Below are positions 10,432-15,673 of a DNA stretch of 50,278 bases, in pieces. Numbering within the stretch: position 1 is the stretch's first letter; every line of letters starts with the position of its first letter. Where the stretch lies: NCBI GenBank assembly GCA_025054955.1, contig JANWZE010000057.1, positions 1 through 50,278 of the forward strand, written 5' to 3'. A model generated the notes under the pieces. The model saw only the letters and a list, made by a program, of their open reading frames with translations. It ran no database searches and was not told the origin of the DNA. The position numbers were made by a program, and so were the translations under genes. The stretch is from Blastocatellia bacterium. GTDB taxonomy: Bacteria > Acidobacteriota > Blastocatellia > HR10 > J050.

Positions 10432-11595
10432 TCAGCTCTCCCATCCCGGTTGGCGGTCACTGATCCAGCCGCCGCCGACGACAACATCGCCGTGATAAAA
10501 CACGACCGCTTGTCCTGGCGTGAAGGCGCGTTGCGGTTGATCGAAGCGGACAGCGACGCGATCATCATCAAGCGGCTCAACTGTGGCTGGCGCTTCGTGA
10601 TGCTTGTAACGGATTTTGGCTGTCACGCGTAGCGGCTCGGTCAACGCTGGGATTGAAATCCAATTCATCCGCTCGGCATGCAATGTCGAACTGAGTAACT
10701 CGCTTTCGCTGCCAACGACAATGCGCTGACGCTGGCGATCAATGCGCAATACATAGAGCGGCTGGCCGACAGCCAGATTCAATCCACGACGCTGCCCCAC
10801 CGTGTAACGATGAATGCCTTGATGATAACCGATGACCTCGCCCGTGGAAGTGACGATCTCCCCTGATCCATCAAGCGATGGGAGCTCGGCGACTCGCTCG
10901 CTCAGCCCATCAGCCTTGCCGTCCACCTTCAAACCGGTACGGCGGTACTCTTCCACAAATCGCGCATACTGGCCATCGGGGACAAAGCAGATTTCCTGGC
11001 TCTCACCTTTGTGGGCAACAGGCAAGCCGGCCTCTGCGGCGATGCGCCGCACGTCTTGCTTGCACAGATGACCGAGCGGGAAGAGCGTGCGAGCCAACTG
11101 CTCTTGCGTCAGCTCGAACAGGAAATACGACTGGTCACGGCTTGCATCCACGCCTCGCTTGAGCAGGAATCGGCCGGTTTGCGAGTCTAGCTCAACGCGC
11201 GCGTAGTGCCCGGTGGCGACTCGATCAAAGCCAAGCTGGTCAGCAAACGAGAGTAATGAACGAAACTTGACGTAGGTGTTGCAGGCAATGCAAGGAATGG
11301 GCGTCCGCCCGTTAAGATACTCCTGCACAAACGGCAACACCACGCGCTGCTCGAACTCCTCCTCCATGTTCAACACGTAAAACGGAAACGCCAGGTGCGC
11401 AGCAACAGCGCGCGCGTCATACACGTCGTCCAGCGAGCAGCAACGCGATGGCAAAGGCTCACCATCGAGCCCGGCGCGACGCCGTTGGTTCCAGAGTTGT
11501 AACGTGAAACCAACAAGCTCATGGCCTTGCTGCTTCAACAGGACTGCGGCAGTGGAACTATCCACGCCGCCGCTCATGGCTACGGCGATTCTCAT
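10432..11595 (-). CDS. mnmA: tRNA-specific 2-thiouridylase MnmA
   Basis: MnmA puts sulfur on uridine 34 of tRNAs for Lys, Glu and Gln. The PP-loop SGGVDSS is at residues 8-14. The two catalytic cysteines of the family are present: C102 (PCIACN) and C203 (EICFVPDG). The tRNA-binding and C-terminal beta-barrel regions follow ([17 protein letters not shown]). The length of 387 residues is slightly above the usual 360-370 because of an insert near residues 36-50 ([17 protein letters not shown]), a variant seen in several phyla. A divergent promoter is shared with the AAA ATPase gene at 11638. Confidence 0.96.
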
Positions 11596-11637: not shown

Positions 11638-12444
11638 ATGATTGAAACGGCAGCCGATAAGTATCGGATCACGCAAGAACCATTCTACATACCGGTCAAT
11701 CACGAAGTGGAATTGTTGACGGCTGCCTACCACGCCAAGTTGCCGGTGATGCTCAAAGGGCCGACCGGTTGCGGGAAAACTCGTTTCGTGCAATATATGG
11801 CGTGGAAATTGGATCGCCCACTGATCACTGTGGCCTGTCATGAAGACCTTTCGGCTACCGATTTGGTCGGGCGTTTCTTACTCGAAGGCCAGGAAACAGT
11901 CTGGCATGATGGCCCGTTGACAACAGCCGTCAAGCACGGATGCATTTGTTACCTGGATGAAGTCGTCGAAGCTCGCAAAGATACGATTGTGGTGATTCAT
12001 CCGCTCACCGATGACCGCCGCATCTTGCCAGTGGAAAAATTGGGCACGTTGATCCAAGCGCCGGATGAGTTCATGCTGATCGTCTCGTATAACCCAGGTT
12101 ACCAAAGTGTGCTCAAAGACCTGAAACATTCGACGCGACAGCGCTTCATCAGCCTGGAATTTGACTATCCCTCGCCAGAGATCGAAACCCAGATACTGAT
12201 GCAAGAAGGCGGCATTGATGCGCCGATGGCGCGCGACTTGGTCAGAATCGGCCAGAAGGTTCGCAACCTTAAAGGTCATGGCCTGGAAGAGGGCGTCTCC
12301 ACGCGATTGCTCGTGTATGCGGCGCAGCTCATCGCCAGTGGGATTGCGCCACGCCAAGCTTGTGAAGTCGCCATCACCAATACCGTCACCGATGAGCTGG
12401 AGATTCAACGGAGCATTCACGAAATTATCACGACGATTATCTAG
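11638..12444 (+). CDS. MoxR-family AAA+ ATPase (NorQ/CbbQ/NirQ-like)
   Basis: This 268-residue AAA+ ATPase has Walker A GPTGCGKT at residues 41-48, Walker B CICYLDEV at about 102-109, and the sensor block [14 protein letters not shown] with the arginine-containing STRQRF. This reading is typical of the CbbQ/NirQ/NorQ branch. Members work with a VWA-domain partner to insert metals into, or activate, enzymes such as Rubisco or nitric-oxide reductase. The partner follows at 12572. The target enzyme is not encoded in the window. The ATG lies 8 bases after a -10 box, so the mRNA is probably leaderless. The 3' end is duplicated downstream. Confidence 0.88.
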
Positions 12445-12571: not shown

Positions 12572-15500
12572 ATGGACTCGATCAAAGAGATTCTCGATCA
12601 TAACCTGCCTGGCGTCGCGCCATCCAAAATCGAGATGCTGGCCGGCAAGTTGCGACGATTGCCGGTGGAGCGGGCGCGGATCATGCTCGATGCCGGATTA
12701 TTGCTTGTCGGCTCGTCGGCGCGCGCGGCTATCGAATTTTTGTGGCACAGTCCTGACGTTGCGCGACAGTTACCGTTGGACGATGTGCGCGTCTGGGGCA
12801 AGATCGCGCGCCATCTGGTTCATGGTCATGCCGACGGCGCTATCCGGTTTTTCCAGAGCGCCGCGCCGGTGCTCCAGTCGCTGCCCGCGTCTGTGCGTAG
12901 CCTTGTGCTAGGCGTCTGCGAACGACAGACCACCATGTCTCCACCGCTGGCCATAGACTGTTTCATGGCCGCGCCGCAATTGATCAGCCACATCAACGAT
13001 CAACATGTTGCCACTCGCCTTTATGCGATTGCCTATGAGATCAGCCGTCGCAGCGCCACGCAAAGCGCCGAACTGCTCAAAGCTGCGCCGCGAGTCCTTG
13101 CGTTCTTGCGCGCCGAGCATCGCGGCCCAATCCGAAAGCCAGCCCAGGACCGTCACCAATCGGACGAAGATCAGTATCAACTTATTGACGAAGTTCTAGC
13201 GCTGACAGAAGCGTTCGCTCAACGAGCCGGCGGCCTGGCCACCGAGTTTTTTGCCACGTTGCCTCAGGCACTGCCAGAAACACCTGTGCCACTGCAAATG
13301 ACGCTGCTACACGCTACTCGATGCTTTCTCGAACGAGGGGGTGGCGCCGCCTTGCAATACTTTCTCGTGGCTGGACGCTTGTTGGTCAGCGCCGGCCCTG
13401 GTGCGCTCAGTCGCTGGACGGCGCTGGCGCAGAAAATTGCCGTGCAGGGAAATGCCGCTGTCTACCATTTCTTGAAGGTCACGCCGCCGGTGATCACAGC
13501 CTTAGTGGCGCTCGGTCGTCATCGCGCCGATGCGTTCACGAGCGGCGTGCTCGACGTGGTCAATGAGATAGCTGATGAGAATATCTCGCTGGCCATCGAA
13601 TGTTTCAAGTCGAGTCCGACGGCGCTACAATCAAGTTCGCTCGAACAATTCGCTCGCTGGGCGCATGCCGGCTTGCGCTTGCGTCAGCGCGACATGCGCC
13701 ACGCTCAGGCCTATTACGCGCTGGAAACAAAGTCCAGTCAACAGTCCTTGAATCAGCTCACGGGCGGCCTCTCACTTGACAAAGTGTTAAACACATTGCG
13801 TCTCTACATCGAAGGGTTGGCAGGTCAGCAGATCATGGTCAAACCATCACCGACGTTCGCGCTCTCACGCCTGCCCGATGAGCTGCGCCTGCATGAGGCC
13901 GCGACCGTGTATCTGCCCTCGCTGATCCACGAATTCGAAGACGAAGCGTCAAATTTCAGAATCTATAAGGCGCTGGCCGCGCACATGGCCGGCCATATCG
14001 AGTTTGGAACATACGCCACCGACACACCGCCGCTCCAATCCGTGATGACGCGCATCCAGGCAGATGGATCGCAGCAACACGCGCCGTCAACATCGGCTCA
14101 ACCTGATGCCGAACCCATCAGTTATGCGACGGTGTTGTCGCAGTTTCCTGACCGTGAGTGGGCAATGCGCGTGTTCACCACGCTGGAAATGGCTCGCATT
14201 CACCAGCAGTTGAGACGTGTCTACCGCGGCTTGAGAGATGACCTTGATCTGTTTCAAACTAGGCTGCGCCAACATCGCCCCCATCTTGACACAATGAGCT
14301 CCGACCAACTGCTTGTCGAATTCCTGTTCCAACTGACGCTGTGTGGCGAATGCAGCAAGACGCTACACTCCATGTTTGCCCCGCTTGCGCCGCGCCTGCA
14401 AGACATCCTCACCCAAACCATCTATCGTCCAGAAGCCACTGTGGCCGACACCTTATTGGCGGTCTATCACATTCATCAATTAGTGGCCGGCGCGCGTCAA
14501 CAACCATCTGAGTCGCTCGATTCGGATCAACGCGCGGGTCAAGCTGAGACCCAACCAGAGCCGCAATCAATGAGTGAGAACATGGCTTCGATCCATGAAG
14601 ATGCGCTGGGCGACCGAGCCGACCACATTCAAGACATACACGCCGACCCTTCACAATCATGGATGGAGCTGATGGGCAAGCGTCTGCCATCTACGCTTCA
14701 TTCGCAGCTCTGGTCAAACCACAATCTTTCCGAAGAGTACGCTCTTGAGCCGGGTGATCAGGTTTATTTTTACGACGAATGGGACCGTGAACTGGGCGAT
14801 TATCGCGCTGATTGGTGTCGGGTCGTGCAGAAATCAGCGCGGCGTGGAGGACAACAATTCGTTCAGTACGTGCGCTCCTACTACGGGCCAATGATCGGCT
14901 CAATCAAACGGCAGTTTCAACTGCTTCGCCCTGAAGCGTTGCGACGCATACGCGGCGAGCTTGATGGAGAAGAGTTCGATCTGCAAGCAGTGATTGATTA
15001 CGCGCTCGACCGTCGCACATCGGGTCGCGTCTCGGAACGACTCTACGTCCGGCGGCTGCGTAAACAGCGTGATGTGGCTGTCTCGTTTCTGCTCGATATG
15101 TCCAGTTCAACTGCGCGCACGGTCGGCCCCGCTCGCGCCGAGCGCGGGCGAGTCGCCAAGCGAATCATTGACATTGAGAAAGAAGGGCTGGTGTTGATGA
15201 GCGAGGCGTTGGAAGCGGTCGGAGACATCTACTCAATTCAAGGCTTCACCAGCGAAGGGCGCCATCATGTCAAATTTTTCGTCATTAAAGATTTTGAAGA
15301 GCCGTATGGCGCCGAGATCGAATCGCGGATTGGCGGCATCACCTACCAGAACAACACGCGACTGGGCGCAGCGATTCGCCATGCCACAGCTCGGCTCAAG
15401 CGACAAACCGCTCATACCAAACTGCTCATCGTGCTGAGCGACGGACGACCTTACGATCATGATTACGGTGACGCCCGCTATGCTCGCGACGATACCAAGG

Positions 15501-15673
15501 TTGCGTTGAGACAAGCGCGCCTCGATGGCATCATCCCATTCTGCATCACGATTGATCGCGAGTCCGAACCGCAACTGCGCGATATGTACGGCGAAGTGGG
15601 ATACACGATCATTGATGACATTCTGCATCTTCCTGAGCGCTTGCCCGGCATCTACCGTCGTCTCACCCAGTGA
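12572..15673 (+). CDS. Very long VWA-domain protein, NorD/CbbO-like, with N-terminal helical repeats
   Basis: The 1033-residue protein is the likely partner of the AAA ATPase just upstream. The C-terminal third is a von Willebrand A domain with the metal site DMSSS (MIDAS, about residue 841) and [13 protein letters not shown] (about 953), as in NorD/CbbO. The N-terminal part (about residues 40-380) is a run of imperfect helical repeats with the pattern A-x-x-F-F-x-x-x-P-x-x-L (for example [15 protein letters not shown] and [13 protein letters not shown]), suggesting an alpha-solenoid. A low-complexity acidic/Gln/Ser segment (about 640-700) separates the two. NorD proteins are usually much shorter. 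An ATG at 12572 follows an in-frame GTG at 12569; no ribosome-binding site is evident. No nor or cbb genes are nearby. Confidence 0.8.

Follow-up and report, generated by a model that had tools for sequence, protein, structure and literature searches.

A NorQD/CbbQO-like ATPase–adaptor pair with a long, repeat-bearing adaptor is conserved across Blastocatellia and probably has a client distinct from NOR, RuBisCO and aliphatic amidase

The 50,278-nucleotide contig of a Blastocatellia bacterium analysed here, hereafter the window, encodes a MoxR-type ATPase and an unusually long VWA adaptor. The two probably form a remodelling machine of the CbbQO/NorQD kind that belongs to the core gene set of Blastocatellia and whose client is neither NOR nor RuBisCO nor an aliphatic amidase. 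This reading is built on homology, intact motifs, the repeat anatomy of the adaptor, class-wide conservation and the lack of linked known clients. MoxR ATPase–VWA pairs are widespread, with very few clients identified so far; a core, vertically inherited pair of a whole class, mostly without known clients, therefore represents an unassigned function. The new element is that a longer, orphan version of a known type of pair occurs class-wide; we found no description of it in Acidobacteriota in the literature.

Organization of the gene pair

The ATPase gene and the adaptor gene lie on the same strand, separated by 127 bases, and in the adaptor open reading frame (ORF) a GTG immediately precedes the ATG. 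The features of the locus, in window coordinates, are as follows.

10432..11595, minus strand: trmU/mnmA (context only), divergent from the ATPase gene and about 40 bp away from it
11638..12444, plus strand: NorQ/CbbQ-family MoxR AAA+ ATPase, 268 aa (AAA_5 and CbbQ_C domains, PDB matches)
12572..15673, plus strand: long VWA adaptor, 1033 aa (ORF, orthologues of about 1000 aa in the class)
12572..13363, plus strand: N-terminal extension of the adaptor, residues 1-264, lacking in the NorD and CbbO sequences used for comparison, with about five 37-residue repeats
12692..13771, plus strand: 37-residue helical repeat array (alpha-solenoid-like), residues ~41-400 (profile periodicity, repeat HMM)
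13364..14011, plus strand: last part of the helical region plus central segment, residues ~265-480, common to CbbO and amidase-linked adaptors
14489..14746, plus strand: variable linker of low conservation, residues ~640-725 (family conservation)
14768..15664, plus strand: VWA domain, residues 733-1031 (Pfam, PDB, alignment)

An earlier note on this DNA had proposed a NorQ/CbbQ-like pair with an oversized VWA partner, and our analysis supports that proposal: the ATPase at 11638-12444 is real, as judged by its AAA_5 and CbbQ_C domains, and so is the 1033-residue protein at 12572-15673, as judged by its ORF, a Pfam VWA match and a match to NorD 9qhd. The same note had seen no nor, cbb or other client gene in the window, which is borne out among the 30 other ORFs annotated there, the annotated neighbours being ordinary housekeeping genes. 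A client-free window says little alone, and the argument draws its weight from the genome-wide survey described below.

The ATPase belongs to the CbbQ/NorQ branch of MoxR proteins

The ATPase combines an AAA_5 core (Pfam E 2.9e-34) with a CbbQ_C domain (E 1.1e-32), and its best solved relatives in the PDB are CbbQ (5c3c, 7.7e-111) and NorQ (9qhd, 1.2e-98). Alignment locates conserved Walker A (GPTGCGKT) and Walker B (ICYLDE) motifs and a conserved 10-residue helix-2-insert motif of the form GRxLL/IxxxxT, which binds the VWA finger in NorQD (PMC13036017); the protein thus carries both marks of the CbbQ/NorQ branch, the AAA_5 core with CbbQ_C and the helix-2-insert motif. ATPases of the class are 71-82% identical to that of the window. 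In a tree they form a class-specific clade (support 96/92) apart from the NOR-, RuBisCO- and amidase-linked groups, although this tree and that of the adaptors include few reference sequences and some long branches.

The adaptor couples a conserved VWA domain to a class-specific repeat array

The C-terminal VWA domain of the adaptor is recognized by Pfam (E 3.8e-7), and residues 733-1031 align with NorD 9qhd (E 7.5e-53). All five MIDAS residues (D842, S844, S846, T929 and D957) are conserved, as is the finger segment at ~781-826, whose position was mapped from PMC13036017; the C-terminal VWA with MIDAS and finger that typifies NorD is therefore present. Walker, helix-2-insert, MIDAS and finger features have been shown or proposed to matter in NorQD (PMC13036017, PMC9976466), and the MIDAS is necessary in CbbQO (PMC4660213). 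The variable linker preceding the VWA domain includes the least conserved stretch of the adaptor, with a mean identity of 0.16 at residues 651-700.

The N-terminal part contains regular repeats. Autocorrelation of the family profile, computed on an alignment of 28 long orthologues, has its peaks at offsets of 37 residues (4.1 sd) and 74 residues (3.2 sd). Nine repeat units are anchored at residues 53, 90, 127, 165, 223, 260, 296, 341 and 379, and this nine-unit register scores 0.62, while none of 20,000 randomly shifted registers exceeds 0.29. The literal motif A-x-x-F-F-x-x-x-P-x-x-L is about ten times commoner than in shuffled sequence (family mean 1.9 versus 0.19). A repeat HMM detects 8 units in the window adaptor, with a total of 143 bits that is not an independent score because the HMM was built partly from this protein; it finds no convincing unit in NorD, the better CbbO reaching 5.5 bits. 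The repeats described in the earlier note are thus real and regular, with an extent of ~40-400 rather than 40-380. Likewise, the extra part of the adaptor is present, yet in local profile alignments it amounts to ~264 N-terminal residues relative to CbbO and not to 340.

The repeat region may fold as an alpha-solenoid: the predicted model is all-helix, at low confidence given its two-sequence input. Structure models from such shallow alignments reached a pLDDT of 49 for residues 1-530 and 36 for residues 400-1033. In 19 members the N-terminal region matches no Pfam family beyond single weak matches, and PDB profile matches of this domain, to a variant surface glycoprotein and designed helical proteins, appear to reflect fortuitous resemblance between helices. 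The domain occurs in 47 of the 396 genomes of the phylum, all 47 of them of class Blastocatellia, a restriction that holds within the phylum; the comparison outside it is one match on a Miltoncostaea plasmid. The name of the class comes from a relative, L007 (JAHFUG010000098.1), whose match coordinates are those of G315, a genome of the window's class. Variability is much higher in the first 400 residues of the adaptor than in the ATPase, as would be expected if a conserved motor were joined to a faster-changing recognition arm; this agrees with such a role without proving it.

The long adaptors form a lineage distinct from NorD, CbbO and amidase-linked proteins

We compared the window pair with the known systems by local profile alignment, in which positions were converted to window residues and gappy columns dropped, so that the boundaries given here are approximate. 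Among the closest known systems is CbbQ/CbbO, which pairs a CbbQ-type ATPase with an adaptor bearing a C-terminal VWA, MIDAS and finger. CbbO residues 54-786 align with adaptor residues ~265-1033 (E 2.8e-53); however, CbbO is ~770 aa long against 1033 aa, and the window adaptor has extra N-terminal repeats. Amidase-linked adaptors align similarly, their residues 12-736 matching ~284-1033. These belong to pairs on proteobacterial plasmids in which a CbbQ-like ATPase and a VWA protein sit beside an aliphatic amidase gene, one of them beside urease genes; the window pair differs from them in being unlinked to such a client and in having an adaptor ~280 residues longer. With the N-terminal part of the adaptor taken alone, the shared residues ~265-480 match CbbO with a profile probability of 85.5% and the amidase type with 96.6%.

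By contrast, NorD, which is ~565-670 aa in the proteins compared and has no repeat array, matches just two parts of the adaptor, the VWA domain and a short piece in the centre (NorD 36-122 against ~400-469; probability 89.9% for the latter), while the key motifs of NorQ/NorD are kept in the window pair. A NorD-type N-terminal domain (about 1-240) is lacking, nothing in NorD aligning with adaptor residues 1-380, and the alignment of residues 40-380 with NorD that would have marked the protein as a normal NorD is accordingly absent. The label "NorD-like" used in the earlier note therefore applies to the VWA domain and the central stretch, whereas residues ~265-1033 as a whole resemble CbbO and amidase-linked adaptors.

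Phylogeny separates the same groups. Long adaptors form one clade (99/98) apart from the NOR-, RuBisCO- and amidase-linked groups, NorD and CbbO falling outside it, and host families mostly stay together within it. A genome from another family of the phylum (L060) carries an ordinary nor cluster whose 667-aa NorD clusters with NorD rather than among the long adaptors, which makes the classical type a lineage separate from the long one. The closest relative found outside the phylum is a pair on a plasmid of Miltoncostaea oceani (Actinomycetota), with an ATPase 68% identical to that of the window and an adaptor, annotated as two ORFs, whose N-terminal and VWA regions are both related to the window adaptor; no known client adjoins it. 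The occurrence of this pair (L118) in another phylum points to gene transfer or a wider distribution.

Related plasmid-borne pairs adjoin NOR, RuBisCO, aliphatic amidase and urease genes, so that the family as a whole probably already serves diverse clients, and the amidase- and urease-linked pairs suggest that clients beyond NOR and RuBisCO exist. The urease-linked case, a NorQD-like pair on Ancylobacter polymorphus plasmid pB (L131), possibly represents a further client class.

The pair is nearly universal in the class and its known clients are not

Of 147 class genomes, 144 carry the adaptor, of about 1000 aa, and 135 carry the ATPase. The 12 genomes without a CbbQ_C match are mostly fragmented assemblies, but include two that are 97% (G347) and 94% (G352) complete; all absence calls rest on draft genomes. 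The window genome itself (152 contigs, 99.5% complete) encodes a single member of this ATPase family and a single adaptor, together with two aa3-type and one cbb3-type haem-copper oxidases, and has neither NOR nor RuBisCO. A fourth COX1-family match (C148) was considered as a NOR and turned out to be an NtrY-like histidine kinase. A defence system was rejected, padloc giving just weak P-loop matches to IetA for the ATPase and none for the adaptor.

Because its VWA protein and ATPase are homologous to NorD and NorQ, the pair could be an ordinary NorD/NorQ serving a NOR encoded elsewhere in the genome, and a NOR-like protein, counted as places with E below 5e-15, does occur in about 53 of the 147 class genomes. 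NorQ/NorD, however, inserts FeB into cytochrome c-dependent NOR, and the class NORs are mostly qNOR-sized, with open frames of ~740-800 residues. Some 94 of the 147 genomes, the window genome among them, have no NOR, yet the pair is present in nearly all. Together with the divergent N-terminal region and the separate position of the true NorD of L060, these observations largely refute this explanation, which we regard as very unlikely. A CbbQO-type RuBisCO activase, or a near relative of one whose client has been lost, would explain why CbbO aligns with the adaptor from residue ~265 to the end. RuBisCO is nevertheless found in just 5 of the 147 genomes, in one of which (G051) a gene for a CbbX-like AAA protein comes after the RuBisCO gene, and a relic would hardly be expected where the orphan pair is so strongly conserved; this explanation is extremely improbable. 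Nor was a close aliphatic-amidase orthologue found in the 147 genomes, the best candidates being partial matches of ~31-37% to nitrilase-type proteins. The near-universal presence of the pair in the class, which NOR and RuBisCO do not share, makes a different client, as the earlier note had suggested, the preferred interpretation. Most likely the client is of a housekeeping type possessed by most Blastocatellia.

Alternatively, the client could be a haem-copper oxidase of the aa3 or cbb3 type, in which the pair would insert or stabilize a metal site, like NorQD in NOR. These oxidases share a superfamily with NOR, the window genome has three of them, and in one genus a ResB-type cytochrome c biogenesis gene adjoins the long adaptor. 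On the other hand, oxidase genes are unlinked to the pair in every neighbourhood read, and most bacteria mature their aa3 and cbb3 oxidases with no NorQD-like protein. We therefore consider an oxidase client unlikely.

trmU is the sole recurrent neighbour of the pair

Gene order was compared across families of the class. The joint order of divergent trmU, ATPase and adaptor is seen in families f1, f81 and f5, most of f6 and part of f3, whereas all three genes are apart in f4, f7 and much of f3. Divergent trmU/mnmA adjoins the ATPase gene in six families and is the sole recurrent neighbour; this adjacency persists in f2 and one f3 genome (G075), where the adaptor lies elsewhere. The arrangement might tie the ATPase to tRNA thiolation or a related pathway. 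Against this, divergent genes are not co-transcribed, the adjacency is lost in the families where the three genes are dispersed, and to our knowledge MnmA elsewhere needs no such factor. Such a tie is highly improbable, and the adjacency is probably ancestral synteny.

No metabolic gene is found next to the ATPase or the adaptor in more than one or two families, and no nor genes lie beside homologues in the class neighbourhoods read, the class NORs being unlinked; the constant association with nor genes that would speak for a normal NorD is thus not seen. The search for a conserved operon partner returned, besides trmU, just lineage-limited neighbours. In six genomes (L046, L047, L053, L063, L064 and L066; genera g4 and g14), a gene for an FHA plus DUF5715 protein of ~500 aa precedes the long adaptor in the same orientation; the gap is ~65 bp or less in five of these genomes and ~900 bp in L066. 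In genus g9, the ResB-type gene (L044, 11575-13293) comes immediately before the long adaptor. In f4 and f7 (L103, L108 and L116), the ATPase gene is followed by genes for PTS-type EIIA and enzyme I, and in f7 also HPr, apparently in one operon.

Proposed mechanism

Judging from the conserved motifs, the ATPase would assemble as a hexameric ring and engage a single adaptor, whose VWA finger would enter the pore while its C-terminus rests on the ring. The client would be gripped by the MIDAS and the N-terminal repeat array, and ATP hydrolysis may then twist the flexible linker, so that the client is remodelled by either cofactor insertion or inhibitor release. By analogy with the characterized pairs, complex formation, client reading by the solenoid and the kind of remodelling are all putative. 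Where the two genes are unlinked, their partnership is suggested by co-occurrence, a statistically weak argument for genes that are both near-universal in the class.

A client-reading role for the variable N-terminal domain has been proposed by the authors of the NorD work (PMC9976466). Since its N-terminal repeats are what distinguishes the present adaptor, the pair offers a natural test of whether the variable domain chooses the client. We see evenly balanced chances that the pair is a class-defining chaperone that matures or reactivates a housekeeping enzyme not known to need help, with the class-specific repeat array as its client reader.

Variants of the adaptor

A second, divergent adaptor paralogue of ~840-1012 aa is present at L056, L057, L058 and L059 (g9, g8 of f3, and f5); in g9 it follows an RND-type transporter gene. 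In one genome of g9 (L048, C1 of G096), the long adaptor is split into 443 and 598 aa and is intact in relatives, pointing to a frameshift or a sequencing error.
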